Shown here: positions 5,113 through 51,738 of the stretch, in pieces
Layout: every line of letters starts with the position of its first letter
Numbering within the stretch: position 1 is the stretch's first letter
NCBI RefSeq assembly: GCF_011039205.1
Contig: NZ_JAAKEL010000001.1
Coordinates: 124,001 to 188,000 of the forward strand
DNA: 64,000 nt
Direction of reading: 5' to 3'
Source of the DNA: Dysgonomonas sp. ZJ279
Lineage (GTDB): Bacteria > Bacteroidota > Bacteroidia > Bacteroidales > Dysgonomonadaceae
Made by a program: the position numbers and the translations under genes
The notes under the pieces: generated by a model
Seen by the model: only the letters and a program-made list of their open reading frames with translations
The model's database searches: none
What the model was told of the DNA's origin: nothing

Positions 5113-5532
5113 AATCTTTGTTTTTTAATGTGGGTACTGTTGTATTTCTCTCTCTTGGTTGAAAATACTATTGTTTAATAGCACTTTACAAGTTAATTAG
5201 AACATTTGGTTTTTCGCACTTGTTCATCTTCTTTACTATTTTTAAGGTCACTGACCTTTTATAGCTTTGCTAAGCGAAATATTAATAATTAATGTGAGTT
5301 CGATATAAATATCAGATAATTATGAGCTATGAATTAGTATCTGTCATTCGTCCATTCTGTCATCCCGATACGTAGTGAGGGATCTATTATGAAATAAGCC
5401 CTTAGCTAATAGCTATTGGCTAATAACCGCAAGAGATAATGGATCCCTCACTACGTATCGGGATGACAAATTCTTCGAGAAATTTTATTAGTTGTAATTT
5501 AATGTCTCACCTACTAAGTATATATCTGTCTT
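5113..5532. other. Intergenic region carrying a palindromic repeat
   Basis: A 420-bp gap between the VOC gene and mazG. The only structure seen is the palindromic element at 5358-5468; the rest is A/T-rich sequence with no convincing reading frame. Confidence 0.6.
5358..5468. repeat. REP-like palindromic element, copy 1
   Basis: Perfect 27-bp inverted arms (5358-5384 and 5442-5468) of the TGTCATCCCGA...GAGGGATC type enclose 57 bp. The interior has its own small dyad around TTAGCTAATAGCTATT. Similar arms recur at 12932, 18044, 20521 and, degraded, at 14497. Confidence 0.85.
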
Positions 5533-12931: not shown

Positions 12932-13015
12932 TTTGTCATCCCGAACTGAAAGGAGAGATCTCAACCTTTCCTCGTTGTAGTATACAGATCCCTCCTTTCA
13001 GTTCGGGATGACAAA
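12932..13015. repeat. REP-like palindromic element, copy 2
   Basis: Perfect 24-bp inverted arms (12932-12955 and 12992-13015) of the TTTGTCATCCCGAACTGAAA type. The outer part matches copy 1; the inner part differs (CTGAAAGGAG instead of TACGTAGTGAGG). It lies between the convergent ABC permease and patatin genes and could serve as a two-way terminator. Confidence 0.85.
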
Positions 13016-36367: not shown

Positions 36368-37675
36368 ATGGCTTCTGTTAAAATCTTATATCGGCCTTCA
36401 AGCAAAGTCGGACAATCGCAAGGCAGTCTTTGCTTTCGTATTATTCACCAGCGTAAAGTGAAAGTGATAACAATAGCATCATCTATTAATCAATCGGAAT
36501 GGGATAGTAATAAACAGGTTATCGTCTATCCGGCAGCACCTTTATTTCGAGTGAAATTTCTACGGGAGTTAGAAGATAAGATCAAACAGATTGCAAATAG
36601 GTTGGAACAAGTAATAGCTGAACTTGAAAAACAAGGGCGTTATGAGATAAGCGATATTGTGTGTAAAAGTTATCTCGAAGAAGAAACAAATTCGTTATAT
36701 CACTACACTGAAAAGCAGGCCCGATTGCTTTTCGATTATGGGCAAGAGCGAACAGCTCGTGCTTATCGTACAACAGTTCGCCAGTTGATGAAATTTAACA
36801 AAGGAGAAGATTTGTTATTGGAGCATATTAATATAACTTTTGTTAAGGACTTCGAGAGACATATGAAACTGCAGAATAAATCATTGAATACTATTTCTTT
36901 CTATATTCGTAACTTACGTGCTATTTATCATAAAGCTATTCAAGATAAATTTATTATTGCTAAAGCTGAGAATCCTTTCTCTGGGACTTTTACCGGATTT
37001 CAGCGGACAAAAAAACGAGCTTTAAGTTTAGAAGAAATTGCACTACTTAACAATTTAGATTTTTCACAACTATTAAATAATAATGATCAAAAGACTTCAT
37101 CTGCACTTTCATCTGTTGATGAAAAGCTTTATACTTGCTGGCGTCTGTTTTTCTTCTGTTTCCATGCTCGCGGAATGAGTTTTGTCGATCTGGCATATCT
37201 GCGTAAGGATAATATTCGCAGAGGTGTTATTTCTTATTATCGCAAAAAAACGGGACAGCTGATGGAAGTGAAAATTACATCAACGCTGCAAGGTATAATT
37301 GATAGCTTTAGTGACGATGTGGCATATTCGCCTTACTTATTTCCAATCATTGCAGATATTGGCAGATCGTCTAGACTCCAGTACGAGAGTGCTTTACGTC
37401 TTCAAAATAACAAACTTAAGGAATTGTCTCATCTTGCTGGTCTCAACAAGTCGCTTTCTACACACATGTCTCGACACTCATGGGCTACTCTTGCTAAAAG
37501 GGAGAACTTACCATTGTGGGTTATTAGTGAAAGTTTGGGGCATTCTAACGAAAAGACTACTTATACCTATTTAGCTTCATTTGAACGTTCCATTTTAGAT
37601 CAGGCGAATGAAGCTATTAGCGCAGCTCTTAACAGAACGAGTACTTATCCCTCCAATATTCGTAAGCGAGGCTAA
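36368..37675 (+). CDS. Tyrosine recombinase (site-specific integrase/invertase)
   Basis: A 435-residue recombinase from the start at 36368 (MASVKILYRPSSKVGQSQGS), which matches the usual start of Bacteroidota integrases; an ATG at 36275 adds an unlikely hydrophobic extension. The arm-type N domain covers about 1-85, the core SAM-like domain about 115-205, and the catalytic domain about 215-420. Catalytic residues are all present: R268 in HARGMSF, the beta-strand K293/294 in YYRKKTGQ, H366 and R369 in THMSRHSW, H392 in LGHSNEK and nucleophile Y401 in TYLASF. It lies 208 bp from a 26-bp inverted repeat that flanks an AraC gene, so its likely job is to invert that segment. No other mobile genes adjoin it, which argues against a prophage. 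Confidence 0.9.
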   Translation: MASVKILYRPSSKVGQSQGSLCFRIIHQRKVKVITIASSINQSEWDSNKQVIVYPAAPLFRVKFLRELEDKIKQIANRLEQVIAELEKQGRYEISDIVCKSYLEEETNSLYHYTEKQARLLFDYGQERTARAYRTTVRQLMKFNKGEDLLLEHINITFVKDFERHMKLQNKSLNTISFYIRNLRAIYHKAIQDKFIIAKAENPFSGTFTGFQRTKKRALSLEEIALLNNLDFSQLLNNNDQKTSSALSSVDEKLYTCWRLFFFCFHARGMSFVDLAYLRKDNIRRGVISYYRKKTGQLMEVKITSTLQGIIDSFSDDVAYSPYLFPIIADIGRSSRLQYESALRLQNNKLKELSHLAGLNKSLSTHMSRHSWATLAKRENLPLWVISESLGHSNEKTTYTYLASFERSILDQANEAISAALNRTSTYPSNIRKRG

Positions 37676-38013
37676 TTTATAAGTAGACCTTAATTAATTT
37701 ATGTGCACTCTTGTGATATTCATGAGGGGATATTTTTATTTTGGGCGCTTTGTTATTCAACTTATGAATAAATATGCCATTTTAGTCTAATTAAAAAACG
37801 TTTTATTATGTTAATAAGCAGTCGAAGAGTAGACTTTCACCCTCTTTTTATTACATTTGTATATTAATCACAAGGTAAAAGACATATCTGTCACTTTCTA
37901 AGTGTCAGAATGATCAATATGTCTTATGCATTTTAATGTTGACAAAGGTATTACATTCTCAACCCAAATCCGTTCTGTATTTCTCCCTATTTGTTAATAA
38001 TTTCCGCCATTCG
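37676..38013. other. Intergenic region with left recombination site
   Basis: A 338-bp gap between the recombinase and the convergent AraC gene. It holds the left inverted repeat (37884-37909) and a 20-bp tandem duplication at the AraC 3' end (37993-38032). No gene is seen. Confidence 0.7.
37884..37909 (+). repeat. Left inverted repeat of the invertible segment
   Basis: 26 bases identical to the reverse complement of 39124-39149. Inside it, CTGTCAC-n7-GTGTCAG is an imperfect dyad, the layout of a tyrosine-recombinase core site with a 7-bp crossover spacer. Confidence 0.9.
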
Positions 38014-38032
38014 TTAATAATTTCCGCCATTC
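37993..38032. repeat. 20-bp tandem duplication at the AraC gene 3' end
   Basis: Two identical adjacent 20-bp units (37993-38012 and 38013-38032). The second holds the last codons and stop of the AraC gene. The unit is not a multiple of three. Confidence 0.9.
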
Positions 38033-38895
38033 ATTTTATTTTGACGAATATTACCTGGTGTTTGTCCGAAGCAATCTTTGCAAAAATCATTGAAATGAGA
38101 AGAAGAATTAAACCCGAAATCTGCACTTATTTCCTTAAAACTACGATCGCTCGTACTTATCTCATGATATATTTTACTGGCCTTTTGCTTTTTCATCCAT
38201 CTATAAGGTGATGTCCCAAAAGTCCTTTTGAATTTTTTCTCGAAACCTGAAACTGAGTAATTCATTGATTCTGCTAATTGTACCAATGTCGTATATTTGC
38301 TGTAGTTTTGCATGATATGTTCAGCAAAATTAGTATTCATACTTAAGGCCATATTGAAAAATATTACCAAATCCTCTTTCTCATAAAATGCTCTAAATAA
38401 GAAGAATAGCTCTTTTATTTTTATTTCAAAGAAATATTTACATTTCAGTCCTTTAGAAATGCAAGTATCTAGAAATACTAAATAATCCTTTAAAATAGCA
38501 TTGATTTCCAAGGACCCTGAGGATGCTATATTATTATCTAACTGAATTGTTGAGGTCTGTTTAACTAAATCTTCAACTCGGTATCGATCACAAAATTGCA
38601 TTTTATTTTCCAAACGAATAATAATTAAAGCAACATCTTCTTCGACATATCCTTTAAAATGATAGAATGCTGGGATATATAACATCTTCCCCTCTTCTAT
38701 TATCTCATCGCAGAAATAGCCAAAAGAGAATTTCAGCTTTCCTTTCATCAGAAACACTATTTTATTTGTTAAAGTATTAATATCCCAGGTGGAATCTTTG
38801 GTGAGATCTTTTCTTTCAATAACAGGGCTTTCTCTATTGCTATAATTCGCACAGTATAGGTGTTCGTTTGGATATAATAATCTTATATCATTCAT
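38014..38895 (-). CDS. AraC-family regulator inside the invertible segment
   Basis: A 293-residue transcription factor. The N-terminal part (about 1-180) is a weak cupin-like sensor with KLKFSFGYFCDEIIEEGKML followed by YIPAFYHFKGYV. The C-terminal AraC helix-turn-helix pair (about 190-290) has TTLVQLAESMNYSVSGFEKK, FKRTFGTSPYRWMKKQKASK and EISADFGFNSSSHFNDFCKD. The spacing and the FGTSPYRWM and FGxTP-type motifs are typical. It is the only gene between the two 26-bp inverted repeats. By family it would activate genes, and the adjacent pilus operon is the evident candidate target. Its own promoter should lie between 38896 and 39123, within the segment, so it may be expressed in both orientations. 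No clear -7 box is visible there. Confidence 0.88.
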   Translation of the reverse strand: MNDIRLLYPNEHLYCANYSNRESPVIERKDLTKDSTWDINTLTNKIVFLMKGKLKFSFGYFCDEIIEEGKMLYIPAFYHFKGYVEEDVALIIIRLENKMQFCDRYRVEDLVKQTSTIQLDNNIASSGSLEINAILKDYLVFLDTCISKGLKCKYFFEIKIKELFFLFRAFYEKEDLVIFFNMALSMNTNFAEHIMQNYSKYTTLVQLAESMNYSVSGFEKKFKRTFGTSPYRWMKKQKASKIYHEISTSDRSFKEISADFGFNSSSHFNDFCKDCFGQTPGNIRQNKMNGGNY

Positions 38896-39123
38896 ATTTA
38901 CAATGTGTTTAGCAAATGTTTAACGAGATAGATTATATCTTATCGTTTAACATTCAGTTGTATCCGTTGGTAGGTGTTCTTTTTACAGCTTATTTGGTGT
39001 AAGCTGTCTCTCATTTTTTGTTTTGATGTTTAACTTTATATTAAACTTTCCTCTTCTTTGCTTCTTCTGTCTTGCATATATGTGTTTGATTATCAGTGAG
39101 TATATGTTGTGTTTTTATTATGA

Positions 39124-39149
39124 TCTGACACTTAGAAAGTGACAGATAT
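39124..39149 (-). repeat. Right inverted repeat of the invertible segment
   Basis: 26 bases, the exact reverse complement of 37884-37909. A full -7 box match (TAGATTTG, 39151-39158) begins one base beyond it on the plus strand, pointing to the pilus genes. Confidence 0.9.
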
Positions 39150-39150
39150 A

Positions 39151-39158
39151 TAGATTTG
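39151..39158 (+). promoter_or_regulatory. -7 box candidate abutting the right inverted repeat
   Basis: TAGATTTG matches TAnnTTTG and points toward the pilus genes. Its -33 region would fall inside the repeat, where no TTTG is present; activator sites further up would lie in the invertible segment. Confidence 0.35.
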
Positions 39159-39196: not shown

Positions 39197-39403
39197 ATGT
39201 ACAGAGTTGAGTCTCATAAGAATACCTTAAGGCAACGCAACGGATATATAGATGTTAGTCTGGAAATTGATATCCAATGTTTATCAATTGATAGAGATTG
39301 CGCATATGCAATTAGACCTGTTATTGTAGAAGATGGGTGTTGCTGCAAATTGCCGCAAATACTGCTCGATGGAAACTTTATCACAAAGATTATAGTCAGA
39401 TAA
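39197..39403 (+). pseudogene. Remnant of a DUF3868-like pilus-associated protein
   Basis: A 68-codon frame whose sequence resembles the N-terminal DUF3868 domain found in Mfa-associated proteins of Bacteroidales: NGYIDVSLEIDIQCLSID, then IRPVIVEDG, KLPQILLDGN and a closing KIIVR. It lacks a signal peptide, and a stop codon lies two codons upstream of the ATG. It ends at tandem stops (TAA TGA). The beginning and the remainder of a normal protein are therefore missing. It begins 47 bp beyond the right recombination site, so the 5' part may have been lost in a rearrangement there. The family match is from memory of the pattern and not from a search; it could be a random frame. Confidence 0.4.
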
Positions 39404-39657: not shown

Positions 39658-40908
39658 ATGAAGAAAGTATTTATTAGTTTAATTATGTCTGGTTTTTTGT
39701 TCTCTGCATGTAGCAGTGACGAGACTCTTGAGACATCAGAAGAAAAGGCTGTAGGTGCAATCGAAGCTACAATCTCTTTCGATCAAACAAACACAAAAGC
39801 CGATCCGGCACTATCAAAAGCAATTCCGCTTACTAGTTGGAAAAATATTGAGAGTGTACAGATGTTTTTATATGAGTCTGGAACAGGGAAGATCGTATAT
39901 GCTTCTGATTACCTAGATCCATATAATGCAGGAGGAACACCAATTACAAAATTTACATGGACTAACATTCCTGTAGGAACAGGAACTTACGATTTAGCTT
40001 TAGTTGCGAATGCTAAAAGTGGTGTTGCTAAAAATGTATCAACCTATATTGGAACAGCAGCTGTGCAATGGGGTCAGTATAACGTAAAGGATAAATTACT
40101 GAATACTGATGTTTTTGCAAAATTGAAACCTGGAACATTGCCTGCAGCGCATACTTCGCAAAGTGCAGCGCATGCAGCTCAAAAAGGTTATATAGTACCA
40201 TCTGAAGTATTTACTGCTTATGCTACTGGAATACAAATCGAAGAAGGTGTTACTAAAACATTGGCTACAGCTTTGAAACTGAAACGTGAAGTATCATTAT
40301 TACGCGTAAGAATAAACAGAGAGGCAATTCCTACGACTGTGAAATTCGATGATGATAAAGCATCTGTACTAATCCAAAGACAACCTCAAAAGTTAGGATT
40401 TAAACAAGGTACATTTGCGGGTGGAATCGTGGCAGGTACAGCTAATGATATTAATGAATTAATCGTAGGTGGTACTGGTGCTACTGCTTTTAATACAGGT
40501 GTTCCAGCTGCTGCTGATTATTCAAATAATACTCAAATGCTAACAGCTGGTTTTACACTTTGGAAAGATATTGTAGTGTTCCCTAATCTACCTTCGGCAG
40601 AAGTAGTAGGTGTTGATGATGCTGTTGCAGGTAACAGACGATATATAATCCGTGTGAGTGCTTTGGCTCCAAAAGATTATGTTTTAGATAATAATACAGT
40701 ACTGAATGCACCTACTACAGTATGGTGGTATGGTTATATACCTCATGCATTTACAGCGAATACTATAAGAGAAATAAATCTGACACTTACATCTAAAGGT
40801 AAGATCACGATACCGGCTGTTCCTGATCCTGAGGGAGGTTTAATTATAAATCTTACAGCTCCTGAAGATTGGAATGCAAACATTGACAGATCTGATTTAG
40901 AACTTTAA
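39658..40908 (+). CDS. Mfa1/FimA-like fimbrillin, major pilus subunit
   Basis: A 416-residue pilin of the type V (Mfa/Fim) class. The N-terminus is a lipoprotein signal with the lipid cysteine in FLFSACSSDE (C18); such pilins travel as lipoproteins and are then cut by an Arg/Lys gingipain-like protease to polymerise by strand exchange. TKADPALSKAIPLTSWKNIE, SVQMFLYESGTGKIVYAS, VPVGT-like TWTNIPVGTGTYDLALVANA and the repeated transthyretin-like strands are as expected. The acceptor-strand tail ends NLTAPEDWNANIDRSDLEL. Being first after the invertible regulator segment and followed by a strong hairpin, it is probably the most abundantly made subunit. Identity with Mfa1 rather than FimA cannot be settled. 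Confidence 0.82.
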   Translation: MKKVFISLIMSGFLFSACSSDETLETSEEKAVGAIEATISFDQTNTKADPALSKAIPLTSWKNIESVQMFLYESGTGKIVYASDYLDPYNAGGTPITKFTWTNIPVGTGTYDLALVANAKSGVAKNVSTYIGTAAVQWGQYNVKDKLLNTDVFAKLKPGTLPAAHTSQSAAHAAQKGYIVPSEVFTAYATGIQIEEGVTKTLATALKLKREVSLLRVRINREAIPTTVKFDDDKASVLIQRQPQKLGFKQGTFAGGIVAGTANDINELIVGGTGATAFNTGVPAAADYSNNTQMLTAGFTLWKDIVVFPNLPSAEVVGVDDAVAGNRRYIIRVSALAPKDYVLDNNTVLNAPTTVWWYGYIPHAFTANTIREINLTLTSKGKITIPAVPDPEGGLIINLTAPEDWNANIDRSDLEL

Positions 40909-41032: not shown

Positions 41033-42046
41033 ATGACAAGTAAATATAAATATACCGGGAGCATCTATCTTATAATTTTTCTAGTATGTATGTGCATGTT
41101 TTCATCGTGCACGTATGATTACTTTGAAGATGAGACAAACTATGTTGTATATGTCCCTAAAGCGGATGCCGCGAAAATGACAGATACATACAAAGTAGAA
41201 GATGTAAGGATATACATTTTCAATACAGACCTCCAAAGAGAACGTTACTCGGTAAACCCTTTTGCTGAAAACGCAAGATCAAGAGTCGGAAACTTTCATT
41301 TCAAACTTTTGCCGGGATTACATCATGTATATTGTTTTACCAATATGCAGAATATCGGATTTTCGGATATTCAATCACACAACACAGCTAGGTTCGGTCT
41401 ACAACAATCTGAAGATGGTTATTATCAGGAACCACCAGTTATATTAGTCGACTATAATGAGCCGCATATGCGTGTACCAGGGCCACCTATTACCGATACA
41501 GCATGGTTCGAACATCAATACGTTGGACGTATTTGTTTTGCAATGAAAAATCTAGGGAAAGTAAATCCTAAACTTTCTTTCGACAATATAAAAAAAGTTG
41601 ACATTATAGCTTCGGGTGTTGGTACTATCCAATATTTATCTCAACTGTCTGATTCGGTTCAGACCCGCTCATCTCGTAATGGTATAGATGACAAAATGCG
41701 ATTGAGTGCAGAACTATATCAAAGTCCTTATAAGGATTTTGAATTTGGATTTGAAAACTACTACTTGCCGTCTCCGGATCTTTCTGCCGAAGGTAACTCT
41801 TCGGATGCTTTTAGCTTCAAAATAAGTTTCATGGACGCTGGTAACAATATAATAGAAACTCTCAATGTTGATGCGGTTGATAGTAAAACGGGTAAAGCCG
41901 TTGTCCTGCATATGGCACAAACCATTGTATTAACAATAGATGGTAATAATGTACAAATACTAGAGTTAGGTAACCCCCATGACTGGTATTCGGATATAGA
42001 AGGTACAGATAATAATACTCCAGGTAATGGAGGAATAGAAATGTAA
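41033..42046 (+). CDS. FimB/Mfa2-family pilus anchor lipoprotein
   Basis: A 337-residue lipoprotein. The signal peptide ends in the lipobox MFSSC (C26). The mature start YDYFEDETNYVVYVPKADAA, then YKVEDVRIYIFNTDLQRERY and LLPGLHHVYCFTNMQNIGFS, follow the Mfa2/FimB layout, where the protein stays lipid-bound and anchors and stops the growing pilus. The tail TGKAVVLHMAQTIVLTIDGN and LGNPHDWYSDIEG is also family-like. It sits 125 bp after the fimbrillin gene, separated by a strong hairpin, and 36 bp before the DUF3575 gene. The function is inferred from the family. Confidence 0.8.
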   Translation: MTSKYKYTGSIYLIIFLVCMCMFSSCTYDYFEDETNYVVYVPKADAAKMTDTYKVEDVRIYIFNTDLQRERYSVNPFAENARSRVGNFHFKLLPGLHHVYCFTNMQNIGFSDIQSHNTARFGLQQSEDGYYQEPPVILVDYNEPHMRVPGPPITDTAWFEHQYVGRICFAMKNLGKVNPKLSFDNIKKVDIIASGVGTIQYLSQLSDSVQTRSSRNGIDDKMRLSAELYQSPYKDFEFGFENYYLPSPDLSAEGNSSDAFSFKISFMDAGNNIIETLNVDAVDSKTGKAVVLHMAQTIVLTIDGNNVQILELGNPHDWYSDIEGTDNNTPGNGGIEM

Positions 42047-42082
42047 TACATATTATAAAATATATTAAACACAATTATTTCG

Positions 42083-42682
42083 ATGAAACATTTTCTAAGA
42101 TACATATTGGTTTGTTTAACACTCCTTTTGTTTTATTGCCCTCAGTCGCAGGCTCAAGCGATTAAAACGAACATTCCGCTTATTGCGACAGGAAATCCTA
42201 ATATCGGAGTTGAATGGTCGGTAGGAAAACAGTTAACCCTCAATGGTGACATTCTGTGGGCACCTTATCTTTTCAAAAAAGACGAAGAAGTTTTCAGAGC
42301 ACTCATTACTAGTGTAGATTTCAGATATTATATCAAACCTAAATTTTATTATACAAATGATTTATGGGATGGTCTTTATGTCGGTCCTTACGCTATGTAT
42401 GGTAATTTCAATATAGGATTTAAGAATAGCGATGAGTCTAAGATGAGTTATAGAAGAAAGGGATGGGGACTATCCAGTGGTATAACTACAGGTTATAAAT
42501 TTTATATATCGAGCCGTTTTCGATTAGATGTTAATCTGGGTTTGGGTTATGCTCATATGCAATATGATAAATATCAATTAGGTGGAGAATATGCCGAATA
42601 CCCACTCGAAAAGAAAAAGACAAAATCATATTGGGGACCTACAAAATTTGGTGTTCATATTGTCTACAATATATTCAGATAA
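42083..42682 (+). CDS. DUF3575 outer-membrane protein
   Basis: A 199-residue exported protein. Residues 1-25 are a signal peptide (MKHFLRYILVCLTLLLFYCPQSQAQA). The mature part is a small predicted beta-barrel of the DUF3575 family, with AIKTNIPLIATGNPNIGVEW, SVGKQLTLNGDILWAPYLF, YIKPKFYYTNDLWDGLYVGP and YRRKGWGLSSGITTGYKFYI. The C-terminal residue pair FR and the alternating pattern fit an outer-membrane barrel. DUF3575 genes are common next to Mfa-like pilus genes in Bacteroidales, but their role is unknown. It lies 36 bp after the anchor gene and 12 bp before the OmpA-family gene, so it belongs to the operon. Confidence 0.78.
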   Translation: MKHFLRYILVCLTLLLFYCPQSQAQAIKTNIPLIATGNPNIGVEWSVGKQLTLNGDILWAPYLFKKDEEVFRALITSVDFRYYIKPKFYYTNDLWDGLYVGPYAMYGNFNIGFKNSDESKMSYRRKGWGLSSGITTGYKFYISSRFRLDVNLGLGYAHMQYDKYQLGGEYAEYPLEKKKTKSYWGPTKFGVHIVYNIFR

Positions 42683-42694
42683 TAGTAAGAAATA

Positions 42695-44698
42695 ATGATA
42701 AACAGAAAAATAAAAATACGGCTTTTATCCTTGGTTCTTTTATCGGGTATATCTCTTTATACATATTCGAAGGAGATAAAAGGAAGTAAACAAGACAACA
42801 AAGCCCGAAAAATAGAGATGAAGGCTGACCGTAAGTTTATCGGGCAGGAGTTCGATAAAGCGATGGAGATTTATGAGTCTGCCTTTGTTAACTCAATGAG
42901 TACTGAGTACGCAGCAGCACTTCATTTGAAAACAGCACGGTTATATCTTACATTGCTGGATTATTTGTCGGCAATACCTCATTATGAGGCGGCTATGGCT
43001 TCCGGTGAAGAATTATTTACTGCGGTCGATGTATGTAACTACCTAGATGCACTGAGATATTCGGGTCAAAAAATTAAGGCAAGCGGTATAGCCAGACAAT
43101 ATGCTTATCGCGATGTGTATAAACTGGATCAACGTTATCAGAACATATTGCATGCTTTGAATTTCGAAGATGGTTTCTTGCCGGTAGGTGCTCCCGAATA
43201 TAATGTAGATAAAGTAGAAAGTGCCGGTACTTCCAATTCCGAATTTTGGATCGGTAGGATGCAAAACGACTTTTTCTATGCTACAAGTAATAGTCGGTTT
43301 CATGATCCCAATAAGAAATTTTATCACCGGACGAGATACTATTCCTTGGATGAAAATTCAAAATCTTCGTTAAGTAATGAAGATAATCAGAAGGATGCCA
43401 TATCAAATTCTATACCTGTTTATTTGAAAAACGGATCATTAGGAGATAATCAGAAGGATGCCATATCAAATTCTATACCTGTTTATTTGAAAAACGGATC
43501 ATTAGGAGATAATCAGAAGGATGACGTATTACGTTCTATTCCTGTTTATTTACAAAACGGACCATTATCTTTTTCTCATGATATGAGCAAAATAATAGTG
43601 ACCGAAGTGTCTTACGACAAGGGAGATCAGATATCAATGTCAAAGAAGGGTATCAATACATTCCAAACAAAATTATATTATTCACAATACGATGCTAAGC
43701 GTCGCGGATGGTCGGCTTTCACAGAAGCTTTTCCACAAAAACAGGGATTTTCTTATGCCCATCCTTATATATTTAACAACGATCGCTCTGTACTGTTTTC
43801 GTCCGACATACCGGAAGGATTTGGTGGATATGATATCTACGTAGCACATTGGGACGAAAAAAATAAAAGATGGGGAGAACCTATCAATCTGGGTCCTCAG
43901 GTAAATACGGAAGGTGATGAAATATCTCCGTGTTTTTACGAAGACATGCTTGTCTTCTCTTCTAATGGTCATGTTGGCTTTGGTGGATACGATCTTTACG
44001 GTATAAGTTATGAAAATAACAGCGTGGTACCCGGTAGCCGAATTCATTTCGATTACCCTCTGAATACCGTACTCAACGATTTTGGTATGTTACGCATCAA
44101 TCTGAATACAGGTTATATTGTATCGGATAGGCAACGAGTAAACAAAGATGATATCTTTTACTTTGAGCGTAACAAAACAGATAAGAAGAATAGCCTTATT
44201 TACGGTATGTCAGAGTCGAAGGCTATATCGAATGGAGCTATTAATCTGATAAATAATGAAGGGAATTATAATAATCTTCGTAAAGAATCTCTACCTCAAT
44301 TCAATTATACCCAACATATGTTGAGTATATACTTCGATTTCGATAGTTTCAATTTGGATTATGCAGCAACTACGGATTTGGCTAATTGGCTGAAAAAAGT
44401 TAATCTGAAAAACATTGAGTCCCTAGTTATAGATGGGTATGCCGACGAAATGGGTACCGAATTCTATAATTATAATTTATCGAATAGCAGGGCTGAAATC
44501 GTTGCTCAGTGGCTCGCCGAACAAGGCGTTAATGTCAAGGTAGTTGTTTCCGGGAAAGGGAAAGTTAGAGTCGGCAAAGTTGATTCGTCAGAAGTTCCTT
44601 TCCATAGCGATTACTCAAGCAACTATAATTCATGGTCCAATAGAATTTGGATGAATCGCAAAGCAAGGCGCGTAGATATAATAGGAATAATTAAATAA
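42695..44698 (+). CDS. TPR/PD40/OmpA-family outer-membrane protein in the pilus operon
   Basis: A 667-residue exported protein. A signal peptide (1-26) is followed by a TPR-like helical part (about 30-160), a region of about 60 residues with three 21-residue repeats (230-292), and a PD40-type beta-propeller (about 300-470; YAHPYIFNNDRSVLFSSDIP, GFGGYDIYVAHWDE, SSNGHVGFGGYDLYGI). A peptidoglycan-binding OmpA domain closes it (about 545-650; YFDFDSFNLDYAATTDLANW and VIDGYADEMGTEFYNYNLSN). This is the domain order of PorE of the type 9 secretion system and of OmpA partners of Mfa loci. It would tie the pilus base to peptidoglycan. The repeats look like recent in-frame duplications. It lies 12 bp after the DUF3575 gene and 17 bp before the next. 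Confidence 0.8.
   Translation: MINRKIKIRLLSLVLLSGISLYTYSKEIKGSKQDNKARKIEMKADRKFIGQEFDKAMEIYESAFVNSMSTEYAAALHLKTARLYLTLLDYLSAIPHYEAAMASGEELFTAVDVCNYLDALRYSGQKIKASGIARQYAYRDVYKLDQRYQNILHALNFEDGFLPVGAPEYNVDKVESAGTSNSEFWIGRMQNDFFYATSNSRFHDPNKKFYHRTRYYSLDENSKSSLSNEDNQKDAISNSIPVYLKNGSLGDNQKDAISNSIPVYLKNGSLGDNQKDDVLRSIPVYLQNGPLSFSHDMSKIIVTEVSYDKGDQISMSKKGINTFQTKLYYSQYDAKRRGWSAFTEAFPQKQGFSYAHPYIFNNDRSVLFSSDIPEGFGGYDIYVAHWDEKNKRWGEPINLGPQVNTEGDEISPCFYEDMLVFSSNGHVGFGGYDLYGISYENNSVVPGSRIHFDYPLNTVLNDFGMLRINLNTGYIVSDRQRVNKDDIFYFERNKTDKKNSLIYGMSESKAISNGAINLINNEGNYNNLRKESLPQFNYTQHMLSIYFDFDSFNLDYAATTDLANWLKKVNLKNIESLVIDGYADEMGTEFYNYNLSNSRAEIVAQWLAEQGVNVKVVVSGKGKVRVGKVDSSEVPFHSDYSSNYNSWSNRIWMNRKARRVDIIGIIK
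43382..43570 (+). repeat. Three tandem 63-bp in-frame repeats
   Basis: Units 43382-43444 and 43445-43507 are identical; unit 43508-43570 is diverged. Each encodes 21 residues of the type DNQKDAISNSIPVYLKNGSL, then G. Confidence 0.95.
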
Positions 44699-44715
44699 CA
44701 AATAAATATTTTACA

Positions 44716-47175
44716 ATGCAGTATAGAAAGAGAATATACGGAAGTTTACTGGTTTTGGCTCTTTTAGCCGTATTCTCGGTAGAAAAAGCGAACGCTCAGT
44801 ATATGCCTATTGTTTATGATAGGATATATGGTGATAATACTAATTTTCAGCATGTTTGCCCGGCATCGTCAGGCGAAGTTGTATTAGTTGGCTGTAATGA
44901 TGGAAAAACTACAATCTCATGGGTGAAGCGAGACGGAGAAGTACTTTTCTCTCGTAGTCTTCCCGACGGTTTTACAACAGTTAACAATGTTCATTATCTT
45001 GGAAATAATAAGATATTGGTTTTGGGGCAGTCTGCTCACTGGAAGGCAAAGAAGAAAACAGCCATAACAGGTGGACGTGCTATTATTATAGATAATGCAG
45101 GTGCTGTATCGTCAGATGTTTATATGGGCGAGGATGGCAGTGAATTACTATGCGGAAAACAGCTGAGAGATGGTAGTCTGATACTCGGTGGATATGAAAC
45201 CAAAATGGGAACAACCCATTCGGGAATGATTGGAAAATTAGATGCTTCCGGTAAAGAAGTGTATAAATATGTTTCCGGAGAAAGTGGTTCATGCATCGGA
45301 TTTGATGTTTTGGGCAGCAGCACAGAGTATATACATGTGGCTTTCACAGGAGACGAGAACAAAGTAGCATCAGTTGTAAGATTAGACAATAAAGGTAAGC
45401 CTGTTTTTGTAACCAGATTGACGGATAATAATTTCCAGATTCAAAAAATGCTGACAGCTGCGGATGATCATATATTCTTGATCGGTAACAGCAATACAAC
45501 AGGTGGTCGCATAATAAAGATACGTACAGAAGGTGATATTGTTTTCAATAAAGAAATCGCATCATCTTCGGATAAAGCTACAGTTGACTATCTATACCTT
45601 GCAAATAACGGTAACATATTAGTGGGAGGAAACGGTTCTAGTAAATCTTATTATTCTCTTTTACGTAATGATGGTACTGATCTTCAAAAGTATATACTTA
45701 AAGGTAGTATATCGGGTATGGGCTTGAATCCTGTATCAGGAGAATCGGTGATTGTTGGCTTCGATACAGATCACGGTCGTGGTTCTATTATCGGTTTAGC
45801 TAAAGATGGTCGTCAAATATATCAAAAGGCTACCGATGGTAACTTCGATAAAACGCAGTTAACTCCGAATGGTATTTTTCTGGCTAGTAGTGCTACCGGA
45901 CGTATCTGTATGCTGTCTAATTCAGGTGATCTTCTTTTCGATCGCTATGCTGTGGAAGATGGCCGAAATACATTCGATGAAGTATATTTTACATCTAACG
46001 GTGATGTCCTGTTTAAAGGAATGGGCAATCGCTTGATCAAACTGGGACACGGACTGTATGTGTCTGATGTGAGAATAAATAAACCGGTGAATGGTTATAC
46101 TACGGCGTTGTTTACAGTGACTCTTACGGGCTATTCAACAACAAGTGAAGGTGCTCCGGTACCTGTGACTGTTGAGTACTTCACTAAGGCAGGAACTGCA
46201 ACGGAAGTGAATAACTATACTCCTATAAAAGGAAGCCTGTCTTTTGTTCCTGCTAATGATGGAGCTACTCATTACATGATAAAACAAGAAATTGAAGTTC
46301 CTGTCAAAGCTAATAACCTGATGGAAGGACAAAAAATGTTTGAAGTTCAATTAGCTAATATCAAACAAAGTTATCCTGTTAAACCGGTAGGTATCGGAAC
46401 AATCGAAGACCATGAGATATTGGTTAAATTGGTTAATACCGAAGATGGTGTAGAAGGTCTCAAAGATGTAGTATATGAGTTGGGTATTTTCAAAACTAAT
46501 GGAGAACCACTTATTAATTCTACGGGATCAGATATTGTTGTCGACGGTATATATGGTAAGGGTACAGCTGATGTTTTAGATTTCGACATGGGAATTATCC
46601 CACGTGTGATGATAACAAAAGGCTCGAAAACGGGACAATTTAATGTGAAAACGCTGAATGATACTCGCTACGAATTACCTAAATCTGTAGTAGTAGACTT
46701 CAATAAAATATATGCTATAAATGATGTTAGTATCGGATTCGAAAGTTCTTTATTAAGTTCTACAGGTACTATAATTGATCAACCGGCAATGATCGCCATC
46801 AATTCGTTGGGTGACCATGGAAGAATGAATAATATCGTATCAGGATTTTTCAGAGTATCTCTGTTGAGAGCTTCCGATGGAGTATTGTTGACTAATGCAA
46901 CAGGAGGAGATGTAAACATTTCATGTTCTGTAAGCTCGGAAACTACTGCAACAGAAGGTAAAGATTTTGTATTGACAAACTTACACGATTTACGAATCTG
47001 GGGCGATGGTAATAGAAGTGCAGTGAATCTGAATGGTATCATCCTTTTCGATAAAGAAAAACTGGGAGCTAAGAAATTAGTTATTGGTATCGATTCGGTT
47101 GCTACACCGGCTAATGCACCTCAAATAAATATTGCGTCCGATGGTAAATATGGCGGCTTCATGATCAACGATTAA
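44716..47175 (+). CDS. Large exported protein with propeller-like and Calx-beta regions
   Basis: An 819-residue exported protein. The signal peptide is 1-27 (ending EKANAQY). The N-terminal half (about 30-440) has repeated strands of the form LGNNKILVLGQSAHWKAKKK and DGSLILGGYETKMGTTHSGM, resembling a beta-propeller. A Calx-beta-like domain (about 450-570; YTTALFTVTLTGYSTTSEGA, PVTVEYFTKAGTATEVNNYT) follows, then two or more Ig-like modules. Calx-beta domains bind Ca2+ and are frequent in surface adhesins. It has no obvious type 9 secretion tail. It is tightly packed behind the OmpA gene (17 bp), so a role at the pilus base or surface is likely, but its function is unknown. Confidence 0.7.
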   Translation: MQYRKRIYGSLLVLALLAVFSVEKANAQYMPIVYDRIYGDNTNFQHVCPASSGEVVLVGCNDGKTTISWVKRDGEVLFSRSLPDGFTTVNNVHYLGNNKILVLGQSAHWKAKKKTAITGGRAIIIDNAGAVSSDVYMGEDGSELLCGKQLRDGSLILGGYETKMGTTHSGMIGKLDASGKEVYKYVSGESGSCIGFDVLGSSTEYIHVAFTGDENKVASVVRLDNKGKPVFVTRLTDNNFQIQKMLTAADDHIFLIGNSNTTGGRIIKIRTEGDIVFNKEIASSSDKATVDYLYLANNGNILVGGNGSSKSYYSLLRNDGTDLQKYILKGSISGMGLNPVSGESVIVGFDTDHGRGSIIGLAKDGRQIYQKATDGNFDKTQLTPNGIFLASSATGRICMLSNSGDLLFDRYAVEDGRNTFDEVYFTSNGDVLFKGMGNRLIKLGHGLYVSDVRINKPVNGYTTALFTVTLTGYSTTSEGAPVPVTVEYFTKAGTATEVNNYTPIKGSLSFVPANDGATHYMIKQEIEVPVKANNLMEGQKMFEVQLANIKQSYPVKPVGIGTIEDHEILVKLVNTEDGVEGLKDVVYELGIFKTNGEPLINSTGSDIVVDGIYGKGTADVLDFDMGIIPRVMITKGSKTGQFNVKTLNDTRYELPKSVVVDFNKIYAINDVSIGFESSLLSSTGTIIDQPAMIAINSLGDHGRMNNIVSGFFRVSLLRASDGVLLTNATGGDVNISCSVSSETTATEGKDFVLTNLHDLRIWGDGNRSAVNLNGIILFDKEKLGAKKLVIGIDSVATPANAPQINIASDGKYGGFMIND

Positions 47176-47254
47176 GTAGCCTCTTCCATACTCACGTCGT
47201 TTGTTTTTAATGTGTTATCCATCTTGAATTAAACTTTAGAATAAGAGAAACAAT

Positions 47255-47755
47255 ATGAAAAAGAATATTTTACCCTTGGTTCTATCTTTAAGGAATAGAC
47301 AAATAAAAGAGTTTAAGATGTTTACTGGTTCCAACAGAGGGGCTATGGAACTCGAAACATCAGATTTAGACCTGAAAAGACTTTGGTTTGATTACATAAG
47401 AAACGTAGACACCTGTTACCGGGATTTGGTATTTGCTTTTATCGACGAGTCGAGACTTTGTCTTTTTCCCGATAAAAACATGTATAAGTACCGTTTCGAG
47501 AAAGGAGCCTTGCAGATCTATAATGCTCAAAAGGAAGAATGGATAACATTTGCACATGGCGACAAGACGAAGCTAGTCATAAGAAAAGGCTTGACCCATG
47601 TCGAAAAACAACATAAAACGAATAAGTGCAGAGTAAAGAGTAGTGATGAGACCTGTTTCGGAGCATTTAATTATGCGGGATTCCCTTCTCTATCTCTGTT
47701 GAAAGATAAGCAAGCTAAAATAGCTTGGTGTAATTTACACTACACTTTTCAGTAG
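47255..47755 (+). CDS. Hypothetical protein without signal peptide in the pilus operon
   Basis: A 166-residue protein I do not recognise. The start is MKKNILPLVLSLRNRQIKEF; this has no hydrophobic signal, so it is probably cytoplasmic. The sequence is basic and rich in Lys and aromatic residues (CRDLVFAFIDESRLCLFPDK-like stretch around 60-80). A Trp-Ile-Thr segment, EEWITFAHGDKTKLVIRKG, is followed by HVEKQHKTNKCR. Five or six cysteines occur, mostly in the second half. It is the only non-exported member between exported proteins, 80 bp after the previous gene and 118 bp before the next; a hairpin separates it from the next gene. It could be a regulator or chaperone. No known domain is seen. 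Confidence 0.6.
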   Translation: MKKNILPLVLSLRNRQIKEFKMFTGSNRGAMELETSDLDLKRLWFDYIRNVDTCYRDLVFAFIDESRLCLFPDKNMYKYRFEKGALQIYNAQKEEWITFAHGDKTKLVIRKGLTHVEKQHKTNKCRVKSSDETCFGAFNYAGFPSLSLLKDKQAKIAWCNLHYTFQ

Positions 47756-47811
47756 ACGATCGGAAGAATGCGAAATACAAGTCAATTCCTATACAAGAAT
47801 TAAGGTTGAGA

Positions 47812-47850
47812 AATATGGCTTGTATGTCATCATACCATACAAGCTATATT
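47812..47850 (+). terminator. Intercistronic hairpin before the minor pilin gene
   Basis: A 15-bp stem (47812-47826 with 47836-47850, one G-T pair), loop of 9 bases, no T-run. It resembles the hairpin at 40945 in strength and position between pilus genes. Confidence 0.5.
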
Positions 47851-47872
47851 CCTAACTAAAAATGTAAAAAAG

Positions 47873-49102
47873 ATGTACATAAAAATAAAACATATCCTCT
47901 CAATTTTAGCTTTACTCATTGTTTGCTTTTCTTGCGGCAATGACGAACTAGCACCGGATTCAGGAGCTGTAGAGGTGCCTGAAACGGGAACGAAAGGTCT
48001 CCGAATAAACTTATTTAATGTTTCGGATAACATACGGGATTATTCGGAGGTTTACGTATTTAACGGCGAGGACCCAAACACAAACTTTTTCCATCATAAA
48101 ATATTGAACAATAACATTGAGCGAACCAGCGAATCTTTAAAAATGATCACAGCTATTGGAAAGTGGAATTTTGTATTAGTGGCTTGCAGCGAAATGGATA
48201 TCCGTTCAAGATTAACTCCACCTACAGCTTCGTTTATTAGGTCAAATACTCCGATGTGGGTAACTCAACCTTCCGGGGGAATATTGCCTGATGTTCCGGA
48301 GATTCGTGTTGCGACTATTAATGGAATAACTATTACAGAGGATACTTATGAAACTGCGGAAGCTATCCTCGAACGAAATGTAGCGAAAGTACGCGTAGTT
48401 CTTGCAGATGGTGTTGGGTTTAAAACCGGTACCGGTACTGTTTCTCTTAAAAATGTTCCTACAAGTTTATCTTGGGATGGTTCACTGTTCCCCAATAAAA
48501 ATACACCTACAGTGGGTGTACCAATGACAAAAACGTTTGCGATATCTAATTCTTCGAATATATCGGGGCATCAGATAAGCGATACAATAGACTTTATCAT
48601 ACCTGCGCATAAGTCTACATCGGCAAGCGATTTTTCAACACATCTGATTACTGTGCAAGTAAATTTAAAAACGGCAGGTTCGACCGACTTCATAAAAGAG
48701 GTTGTTGTACCTATTCCTCCTAAAAACAATAAAATTCTGTTGGTAAGCTTAACAGCCAAAGGTGGAGTGGAGGTAAAGGTGGATGTGAAAGACTGGGCAA
48801 CAGTAGTCTCTAACGAAGATGTCGATATGTATGCCATGTCGCAGATTTCGACTACCGCAACAATGGCTACTTTCAGTATGAATATGAAACAGGAGCGTAA
48901 TTGGTGGGTTACACTTGAAGACACTAACAATTTTGAGTTTGTCGATGAAAGTAAAACTTTCGGTCAAAAAACAATTTCACCTGCTATTATACAAGTGAGA
49001 CGCAAAACTTCTGGAGTTGCTCTATCAACAAAAGTAAATCTCTTTATATCCGGTTTGGACGGACTAAAAGAGCAGTATGTCGTAAATAATCTGATACAAT
49101 AA
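47873..49102 (+). CDS. Fimbrillin-like minor pilus lipoprotein 1
   Basis: A 409-residue lipoprotein with lipid cysteine in LIVCFSCGND (C22). The first domain shows the pilin pattern TKGLRINLFNVSDNIRDYSE, VYVFNGEDPN, then GKWNFVLVACSEMD. It continues with a second transthyretin-like domain (LERNVAKVRVVLADGVG). The tail DGLKEQYVVNNLIQ closes it. It lacks the classic FimA acceptor tail. Such proteins are the accessory or tip subunits of Mfa/Fim pili (FimC/D/E- or Mfa3/4-like). It is 12 bp from the next gene and clearly co-transcribed. Exact tip order cannot be deduced from sequence. Confidence 0.7.
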   Translation: MYIKIKHILSILALLIVCFSCGNDELAPDSGAVEVPETGTKGLRINLFNVSDNIRDYSEVYVFNGEDPNTNFFHHKILNNNIERTSESLKMITAIGKWNFVLVACSEMDIRSRLTPPTASFIRSNTPMWVTQPSGGILPDVPEIRVATINGITITEDTYETAEAILERNVAKVRVVLADGVGFKTGTGTVSLKNVPTSLSWDGSLFPNKNTPTVGVPMTKTFAISNSSNISGHQISDTIDFIIPAHKSTSASDFSTHLITVQVNLKTAGSTDFIKEVVVPIPPKNNKILLVSLTAKGGVEVKVDVKDWATVVSNEDVDMYAMSQISTTATMATFSMNMKQERNWWVTLEDTNNFEFVDESKTFGQKTISPAIIQVRRKTSGVALSTKVNLFISGLDGLKEQYVVNNLIQ

Positions 49103-49113
49103 ATTTTTGCTTT

Positions 49114-51738
49114 ATGTATTATAAATATATCCGAAGAATAAGTTTCCTTATTGTTGCTCTATTTCTTCTTTCCTGTTCGGCCGATTTGGATGACGAGCTT
49201 GCAAAGTCGAAAGCTCCAATCGATGGAAAGGCAGTTATTGCTTTACAATTGCCTACTGTCCAATCTGATGGTGCAACAACAAGATCTGCAGATAATGAAA
49301 GTTTGATTAATAATCTTTCACTTTTTATATTCAATAAAACTACCGGAGCCAAAGAGTTCTATGTACGGTTGAATGTACCTACTGATCCATCTACGGAGGT
49401 GGATATGAGCCGATGGGCAAGCGATCAGGTTATAATGTTACTCAATTCGGCAATATTATCGGATTTGAGTATATCCCGAAATATACATGTGGTTGCCAAT
49501 GTCAATGAAAGTAAACTGAATGCCATTAGCAGTGAAAGCAATCTGAAGGCTGTAATAACTGACGCAATTACAGCTGAGATTGCTGAGCCTGATGCTGACA
49601 AACCTTTCGTTATGCATGGTGTGAAAGAAAGCCATGTTTTTGCAACCGATAACAGAGCGTCTGTTTCTTTAGTTCGTAATATAGCTAAAGTGCAAATGAC
49701 GATTAACACTCAAAATTTCACTTTTGGAGGAGCAGCTATTTCCTTGGCTCCACTTAATCAAAATCCTTCGGTTAAGATGGTGAACGTAGCCGATCGTACT
49801 TACCTTGTTTCAAACACAGCGAATCCTGCTACTGCGACTTATTTTTCGTATGCAAATAAGGTAGTTACACCATCTGAAAGGACTGCTACAACAACAAAAA
49901 CGATAGCTCATTCTTATATCGGCGAAAATTTACGTACGACTTACGATATTGAGAAAAATGCGACCTACCTCCTTCTGCAAATTCCTTATCAGAAAGGTGC
50001 TGGTGGCGAAATTATCACAGACAACTATTATAAAGTTCTTATCAATAAAGAAAACGGTTATAAGATTAACCGTAATACAATTTACGACTTAACACTCAAT
50101 ATATCTTCCTTAGGAGGAGAAACAGATGCATCGGCGGCATTAATAGAAGGTACTTTAAATATTCTGCCTTGGGACGAAAATACAGTTATGTCTGATATAT
50201 CTCAAACATTTCTGACTGTAAAAGAAATAGAAACGGCAATAGGAGTAAAAAAGGATTTCTATTATGCAACCAATGCGGAAACCTCCGATTGCTCCCTAGA
50301 ATCAGGAGCTCCTTGGTTAACAGCTTCTTTCGATGCAGCTAATAACATTAAGTTGGTGGCCGACGGGGCTGATTATACGGTTCCGCGAACTACTACGTTG
50401 AAGATTAAAGTTAAGAATCTCACAAAGACGATTACTGTAAATCAAGCTGCAATGCCAGTCACAAACGGTTCGATAAAACTGGATCCGAAGGTTATTTATA
50501 TATCTGAAGTATCGCCTAGTAAAAATGTTGCATTGACTGTTAATCCAACTACTTCTTTCTGGACTAAGATTGCAGGTGATCCCACTATGGCCTCTTGTGA
50601 TGCCATTAATGGCACGGGAAATAAGACTCTCAAATTCACTAGTCAATCGACATATGGTAATACTGAATATCAATTTATGAATACCAGTACATTGGAGTAT
50701 GATATTGTCAAAGTTTGTAATTTGAGTTTGACTTCTTCTGTAGAAACTATGGAGATTCCAAGTGCAGGCCTTTCTGGAGATATTAGTGGAATCGTAGCTT
50801 TGGGTGGAAATGCTGATTGGGTAGTTAAATCGAAATCGTCATGGATTACTAAAGCTCAGAAGGAAGACGGAAAGTTGGTATATGTAATATCGGCGGAAGT
50901 CAATGCTCAAGACAGGGAAGGTGAAATTATAATAAATCACGTTGACGATGTCAATCTGATAAGAATTATAAAAGTTAAGCAATCGGCAAAATTCGTCGTA
51001 TTTCCTAAATTCGATTATTTGGTAATAAGATATAGAGTTGGACTTCACCCTCAACATGCTAGTGGTAAGAGATGGGATATGGATTCAGCAACTTTCTTCG
51101 GAGGTACAGGTATCACTACACTTGATAATTATGGGGTAGGGTATGCTGCTACAGGCAATAGTGGTGTTGTACGTCAGGTATTCTATAAATCTGAGGTTGT
51201 AATGCAATTTGGTGGAGACAATACGCAGAGTGGATACGAGACAACATATATAAACTTCAAAGATTTAGTGACTTTGTCTACTTTTGATGATTTTCCGCCA
51301 TCTTTTACTGTGCAAATTTATGCAAGATGGTGGACGACGGGTATAAATAATTACCCAATTCACCTTGATATTGTGACATATTTAGATGGTGATATGGAAT
51401 CAGACGAGACTTATGATTTTAAAAATGTAGGTGGAACAATAGGTGTAGATGATACTTATTCCTTTATGCTGGAAGTAAACAACCAAACAACGCCGATTGC
51501 TCCTGATCATTATGATAGTTCTCAATTGATTGGTTATGTGACATATAATAAAGTAGAGAGTACTGCGGTATTCACAAAAGTGAGTGCAGACCTAGATCCT
51601 AACGCTCCGGTGGGAGCATCTGTAACGCCTTTATCTAGCTCTTCACGAGGAGTATCTTTAGATGTAGAGCCTTTACCTGGCGAAACAAAAGATGAGTATG
51701 CTATGAGATTATGGAAACTCCGTAATAATAAAAAATAA
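49114..51738 (+). CDS. Fimbrillin-like/BACON lipoprotein 2, likely pilus tip
   Basis: An 874-residue lipoprotein (lipid cysteine in LFLLSCSADL, C21). An N-terminal fimbrillin region (about 30-355) shows TTRSADNESLINNLSLFIFN, LVRNIAKVQMTINTQNFTF and LNILPWDENTVMSDISQTF. Two BACON-like domains follow: about 360-445 (ETSDCSLESGAPWLTASFDA, LKIKVKNLTKTITVNQAA) and about 540-628 (LGGNADWVVKSKSSWITKAQ, IRIIKVKQSA). The unidentified C-terminal part, about 630-874, is rich in Thr, Asp and aromatic residues and may be a ligand-binding head. BACON domains are common in Bacteroidota surface adhesins and glycosidases. It is coupled with both neighbours by 11 bp gaps. Adhesin at the tip is the likely role, by layout and length. 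Confidence 0.72.
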   Translation: MYYKYIRRISFLIVALFLLSCSADLDDELAKSKAPIDGKAVIALQLPTVQSDGATTRSADNESLINNLSLFIFNKTTGAKEFYVRLNVPTDPSTEVDMSRWASDQVIMLLNSAILSDLSISRNIHVVANVNESKLNAISSESNLKAVITDAITAEIAEPDADKPFVMHGVKESHVFATDNRASVSLVRNIAKVQMTINTQNFTFGGAAISLAPLNQNPSVKMVNVADRTYLVSNTANPATATYFSYANKVVTPSERTATTTKTIAHSYIGENLRTTYDIEKNATYLLLQIPYQKGAGGEIITDNYYKVLINKENGYKINRNTIYDLTLNISSLGGETDASAALIEGTLNILPWDENTVMSDISQTFLTVKEIETAIGVKKDFYYATNAETSDCSLESGAPWLTASFDAANNIKLVADGADYTVPRTTTLKIKVKNLTKTITVNQAAMPVTNGSIKLDPKVIYISEVSPSKNVALTVNPTTSFWTKIAGDPTMASCDAINGTGNKTLKFTSQSTYGNTEYQFMNTSTLEYDIVKVCNLSLTSSVETMEIPSAGLSGDISGIVALGGNADWVVKSKSSWITKAQKEDGKLVYVISAEVNAQDREGEIIINHVDDVNLIRIIKVKQSAKFVVFPKFDYLVIRYRVGLHPQHASGKRWDMDSATFFGGTGITTLDNYGVGYAATGNSGVVRQVFYKSEVVMQFGGDNTQSGYETTYINFKDLVTLSTFDDFPPSFTVQIYARWWTTGINNYPIHLDIVTYLDGDMESDETYDFKNVGGTIGVDDTYSFMLEVNNQTTPIAPDHYDSSQLIGYVTYNKVESTAVFTKVSADLDPNAPVGASVTPLSSSSRGVSLDVEPLPGETKDEYAMRLWKLRNNKK

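Follow-up and report, generated by a model that had tools for sequence, protein, structure and literature searches.

The window analysed here, a 64,000-nucleotide stretch of the genome of Dysgonomonas sp. ZJ279, contains a recombinase gene, a regulatory gene enclosed by inverted repeats and a pilus operon in close succession. The recombinase (36368–37675, forward strand) is an intact tyrosine recombinase of 435 amino acids. It matches the Pfam families Arm-DNA-bind_5, Phage_int_SAM_5 and Phage_integrase, giving it arm-binding, SAM-like and catalytic integrase domains, and its C-terminal part aligns with XerC-like 4a8e at the HxxR, H and Y motifs. Its 3' end lies 208 bp from the left of two perfect 26-bp inverted repeats (37884–37909 and 39124–39149, both listed on the forward strand as candidate recombination sites). 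The arms are 100% complementary, and the 1214 nt between them hold one intact gene, araC, for an AraC-family regulator of 293 amino acids (38014–38895, reverse strand; HTH_18, E = 4.6e-17).

The regulator has a C-terminal double helix-turn-helix (PF12833, HTH_18, and PF00165, HTH_AraC). Its predicted structure (pLDDT 78) combines an N-terminal cupin-like barrel with this C-terminal pair and resembles AraC-family and cupin folds, and binding of some ligand is possible. The closest solved folds are those of the AraC-type pilus activators CsvR, ToxT and Rns, at 12–17% identity and TM-scores near 0.45. The protein is probably a pilus activator.

On the other side, 508 bp past the right repeat, starts a FimA-like pilin gene (39658–40908, forward strand; P_gingi_FimA, E = 5.1e-06), the first full gene of the putative target operon. 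The rest of the operon (41033–51738, forward strand) encodes an unnamed lipoprotein (41033), a DUF3575 protein (42083), an OmpA-like protein (42695), a Calx-beta protein (44716), a product at 47255, a weakly matching Mfa2-like protein (47873) and a FimD-tip-like protein with BACON (49114). The FimA match is above the Pfam cut-off, and those of Mfa2 and FimD-tip fall just under theirs. The order FimA-P41033-DUF3575-OmpA-Calx is kept in relatives, and the operon is probably a FimA-like (type V) pilus operon. Before it, a 68-amino-acid reading frame (39197–39403, forward strand) resembles, by eye, the start of a DUF3868 protein and is probably a remnant of one; L046 and L122 also carry a reading frame at this position, and that of L046 matches DUF3868.

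A first-pass annotation of this DNA had reported a complete recombinase 208 bp outside the repeats, a single AraC-family gene within their 1214 bp, and a fimbrillin operon about 500 bp away. Gene content, repeat length, coordinates and distances are all as it described.

Repeats of this length are not expected by chance: when the 64-kb window was shuffled locally 40 times, no inverted repeat with arms separated by less than 3 kb exceeded 17 nt, and the longest averaged 14.4 nt. The left repeat has a near-palindromic core, TGTCACTT-TCT-AAGTGTCA. In the 4.1-Mb genome, the core TGACACTTAGAAAGTGACA has exact matches at these two sites only, and no other sites of the same kind were found. The same genome contains a single match to the recombinase family at E<=1e-60. 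Because it is the sole such member and no other such sites are present, the recombinase looks dedicated to the araC switch.

A gene enclosed by perfect inverted repeats also has the shape of a transposon, and the repeats could be the ends of a transposon-like or integrated cassette rather than of an inversion system. This idea was dropped when no target duplication was found at the outer repeat edges, and its chance of being correct is very small. The core is palindromic, as a site for a tyrosine recombinase should be, and no copies at unrelated positions were found in the genome. In many related loci, moreover, the segment keeps a constant placement relative to recombinase and operon, and it occurs in both orientations.

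The window holds two more perfect inverted repeats, of 27 bp (5358–5384 and 5442–5468) and 24 bp (12932–12955 and 12992–13015). These are intergenic, have short loops and common CATCCCGA...GGGATGACA ends, and resemble small hairpin repeats.

Recurrence and orientation in related genomes

The segment can lie in two orientations. With the recombinase on the left and reading right, araC reads left in orientation A, which is that of the window, and right in orientation B. A contig scan of genomes with the window's AraC alone gave no match; an alignment-based scan did.

Relatives from at least three families have 13 loci at which inverted repeats enclose an AraC gene, and almost all of these have a recombinase of the same family close by. 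A recombinase relative accompanies such a gene in G010, G020, G016, D. hofstadii DSM 104969 (G012) and, three times, Dysgonomonas sp. 521 (G019). The arrangement in D. hofstadii (L090) matches that of the window. Further loci are L110 (a MAG of Dysgonomonadaceae), L099 and, in D. capnocytophagoides DSM 22835, L122; L176 (another genus of the same family), L177 and L178 (other families) came from a search across 393 genomes of the order. The recombinase family adjoins all loci except L176, where it is about 3 kb away, and L099, where none is adjacent. L099 (9714–10983) belongs to MAG Kf353_bin95 (G014), and the closest relative of the window's recombinase (55%) lies on another contig of that genome, G014:C310; this enzyme may therefore act on L099 in trans.

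The first-pass annotation had placed the regulator itself on invertible DNA and proposed a comparison of orientation in related genomes. That comparison supports the idea: among 14 loci including the window, araC lies inside the repeats in orientation A at 11 and in orientation B at three (L049, L122 and L178). Dysgonomonas sp. 521 alone holds L049 in B and L050 and L051 in A. Since both orientations occur among relatives, as differences between species, the segment has been inverted during evolution.

The repeats of these loci have a common core, GTCACTT-NNN-AAGTGAC. In L110 both palindrome halves are altered in concert (GTCGCT...AGCGAC), a joint change that fits the expectation for a recombinase site. 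An ATGTTAA motif (37808–37814, forward strand, in the window) occurs 71–82 bp outside the repeat in the window locus, L048–L052, L099 and L110. This motif and the GTTAAACA-type repeats near the start codon in the araC leader (38896–39123, reverse strand) could serve the recombinase as arm sites. Near the araC start, for example in L110, L099 and the window (38896–38960), there are also tandem TTTGTTAAACA-like repeats spaced about 11–12 bp; these may be arm sites too, or else the site of a second regulator.

Promoter boxes and a probable operator

The -7 site of Bacteroidota promoters is TANNTTTGY (PMC12632263). Two such boxes lie near the left repeat of the window. One, TACATTTG (37852–37859, forward strand), is 32 bp outside the repeat, downstream of the ATGTTAA motif, and points into the segment; it marks a putative fixed promoter, P_L. 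The other, TACCTTTG (37943–37950, reverse strand), is 33 bp inside the repeat and points outward in the same direction as araC; it marks a putative invertible promoter, P_inv. The first-pass annotation had suggested an outward promoter that a flip would turn from the recombinase to the pilus genes, and the P_inv box at the araC 3' end answers to it. The annotation overlooked the P_L box, which would drive araC only once the segment is inverted, and also the probable operator near the end of araC.

Both boxes recur. P_L lies about 27–37 bp outside the recombinase-side repeat and points inward across loci: exact TAnnTTTG is present in 7 of 11 loci at 27–36 bp, and TAnnTTTA in L047 (37 bp) and L048 (33 bp). 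The box is imperfect in these two and in L122, L176 and L178, and absent in L046. For P_inv, 9 of 11 loci have an exact TAnnTTTG just within the repeat that follows the araC stop codon; L122 has one mismatch, and in L099 and L178 no box is recognisable. Shuffle-based tail probabilities, which ignore shared ancestry, are about 1.5e-10 for P_L and 4e-15 for P_inv, and the controls, the opposite strand and the araC 5' side, gave 0 of 11 loci each. The later-found loci provide a rough outside test: P_inv is exact in L176 and L177 and absent in L178, and P_L is exact in L177, TAnnTTTA at 32 bp in L178 and weak in L176. The -33 boxes of the putative promoters are mostly poor.

Over the araC stop codon of the window lies a perfect tandem 20-bp repeat, two copies of GAATGGCGGAAATTATTAAC (37992–38031, reverse strand), with a weaker third copy at about 37980–37987. 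In most loci GGCGGAAA or a close variant is found about 57–58 nt upstream of the P_inv box and a second copy 20–21 nt further on; the self-identity of the block peaks at a lag of 21 (0.52 vs about 0.25). L052 retains the repeat although it is read there in a different frame, and L047 although its araC stops short of it, so the conservation is at the level of DNA. Direct repeats of this kind are typical AraC-family operators, and the 20–21-bp repeat of GGCGGAAA upstream of P_inv is a probable operator for the AraC protein.

A search for further targets of the regulator in trans, using the combined operator and P_inv pattern, gave one match besides the araC locus in the window's genome. Within the genus there were 18 matches, 9 of them at AraC loci, and the remainder was about equal to the reversed-pattern control. 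A trans regulon was rejected on this basis.

Inversion of 37884–39149 in silico makes the arms identical again and places araC downstream of the P_L box. The P_inv box moves to 39083, 575 bp upstream of fimA, and is aimed at it. Orientation A could itself be the ON state if the araC 5' region beside the pilus operon held divergent promoters, leftward for araC and rightward for the operon. Divergent genes are a common activator-target layout, most of the sequenced genomes are in A, and the window's leader has two rightward one-mismatch -7 boxes with TTTG -33 boxes. These weak boxes are not seen in other loci, though; the leader has no -7 box on the araC strand, and none of 11 loci has an exact -7 box pointing outward on the 5' side of araC. 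For want of a conserved box there, this layout was dropped as the main model. The operator and promoter block is found on the 3' side of araC, and in fixed relatives, all of which are in B, it lies ahead of the operon; we regard an ON state in A as unlikely. A -7-like box at 39151, just beyond the right repeat, could drive the pilus operon whatever the orientation of the segment.

The first-pass annotation had also suggested that the switch could take in expression of the recombinase. The anatomy does not support such a link: the recombinase gene reads toward the switch, no conserved promoter leads to its 5' end, and in orientation A, P_inv could at most produce transcripts antisense to the gene's 3' end.

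Segments of the same repeat type that lack an AraC gene, 328–472 bp long, lie beside the same recombinase family at L055, L056, L057 and L061. In L055, L057 and L061 a P_inv-like -7 box is set about 30 bp in from one repeat, in the same place as in the AraC loci. Such loci lend something to the idea that the window holds a plain invertible-promoter switch, in which P_inv alone matters and araC is a passenger whose product acts elsewhere or not at all. Against this, the operator is in register with P_inv across AraC loci and is kept independently of reading frame, the three bare segments show no GGCGGAAA, and araC remains with the same operon where the switch is lost. A passenger role is accordingly improbable.

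Another kind of segment was seen in G019. About eight segments, on contigs C54, C132, C193, C196, C202, C206 and C236 (arms 413 bp apart) and C233 (437 bp), have one inverted-repeat core, GTCTCTTTATAAGTGAC, in common, as if one recombinase controlled many invertible promoters.

Relatives without a recombinase and the proposed switch

At L064, L066, L079 and L085, the same pilus operon occurs with neither a recombinase nor intact repeats. In each, araC is upstream of fimA and co-directional with it, the arrangement of orientation B. The operator and P_inv lie between araC and fimA in L064, L066 and L079; L085, a more distant fixed locus, lacks the operator block. Traces of repeats remain at positions matching a repeat of L048: in L066 a site with one mismatch lies 258 bp ahead of araC, and in L079 a decayed site follows araC by 68 bp. 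In the AraC tree, 10 of the 11 repeat-flanked proteins in the set then tested form one clade with three fixed ones (97/96), in which L066 is sister to L048 and L079 to L047. A separate fixed AraC clade without repeats (L063, L065, L067–L083) was left aside.

These fixed relatives look like switches locked in orientation B. Because recombinase-less relatives with the same pilus operon appear locked in this way, B is probably the working, ON state and the window, in A, the OFF state.

Decay of this kind raises the question of whether the switch of Dysgonomonas sp. ZJ279 is itself dead or locked, its sites persisting in a segment that no longer inverts. L066 and L079 demonstrate that such switches decay, and the alternative (inverted) junction is absent from the strain's assembly. 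Set against this are repeats that are perfect over 26 bp and an intact recombinase with its C-terminal catalytic motifs, and we give a dead switch only a small chance.

The explanation we favour, and consider likely, is a switch by site-specific inversion, with the operon's AraC-type activator and the promoter on which it acts both carried on the invertible segment. The adjacent tyrosine recombinase would invert the 1.2-kb segment. In orientation A, araC would face the recombinase with no recognisable promoter and P_inv would fire away from the operon (OFF). In orientation B, P_L, outside the recombinase-side repeat, would transcribe araC. The AraC protein would then bind the direct repeat over its own stop codon and activate P_inv, which, now facing the other repeat, would read across it to the pilus genes (ON).

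In Dysgonomonas sp. 521, what looks like a retroelement lies downstream of the orientation-B switch (L049 8505–13388 and L179 842–2083). The region encodes two proteins with FISUMP domains, an Avd protein and a reverse transcriptase with YVDD, and it holds a template copy rich in adenine; for the first copy, 25 of 28 template-to-variable mismatches are at A. The set resembles a complete diversity-generating retroelement, and the L049 locus would join phase variation and targeted mutation.

Relation to known switches

Like invertible promoters of Bacteroidota, the locus has inverted repeats, an adjacent tyrosine recombinase, an outward TANNTTTGY promoter box and a surface pilus operon as target. 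Such invertons are described as mostly intergenic, and some near fimbrillin genes are known from hCom2 (PMC11892184). The outer-surface-protein switches of B. fragilis, in the account of Weinacht 2004 cited in PMC12632263, are invertible promoters beside tyrosine recombinases. A bare promoter is the usual but not the defining state of the segments in such tyrosine-recombinase switches. The segment described here differs in carrying a whole gene for a probable activator, with its probable operator, and it would rely on a second, fixed promoter outside.

Larger inversions that move genes are also known (PMC12632263). As there, inversion would bring a coding gene next to a fixed promoter. The genes moved in those systems are structural or surface genes; here the gene is a regulator, and its target promoter would be brought to the operon as well. 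The fimbrial inverton of Providencia stuartii, of 844 bp, encloses a recombinase gene (PMC5903667). It and the Salmonella Hin segment resemble the araC segment in having a gene inside a fimbrial or flagellar phase switch, but in both that gene is the recombinase and not the target's activator.

The E. coli fim switch is similar in that pilus phase variation is brought about by tyrosine recombinases. To our knowledge, neither there nor in the Rns, CsvR and ToxT systems is the activator on invertible DNA. In the literature searched, no AraC-type activator on an invertible segment is reported, though a precedent may exist. The recurrent arrangement is best read as a variant of the Bacteroidota invertible-promoter switch with the activator on board.

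Most phase switches described in Bacteroidota work by turning a promoter. In the araC segment, regulator, probable operator and putative promoter would move as a unit, with a second, fixed promoter outside, so that one recombination would set both activator supply and promoter direction. Such wiring would give a tight OFF state and an ON state still tunable by whatever the AraC sensor domain detects. It is somewhat better than an even chance that this is a recurrent Bacteroidales switch, in which one inversion closes a two-part circuit, from fixed promoter to activator and from activator-dependent promoter to operon. ON would then need both the orientation and the activator's signal, on surface operons as varied as those for pili and FISUMP proteins, once together with a diversity-generating retroelement. 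The araC switch offers a testable case of combining stochastic and signal-driven control, and the locked relatives may record in what order the steps follow when fixed regulation takes the place of a switch.
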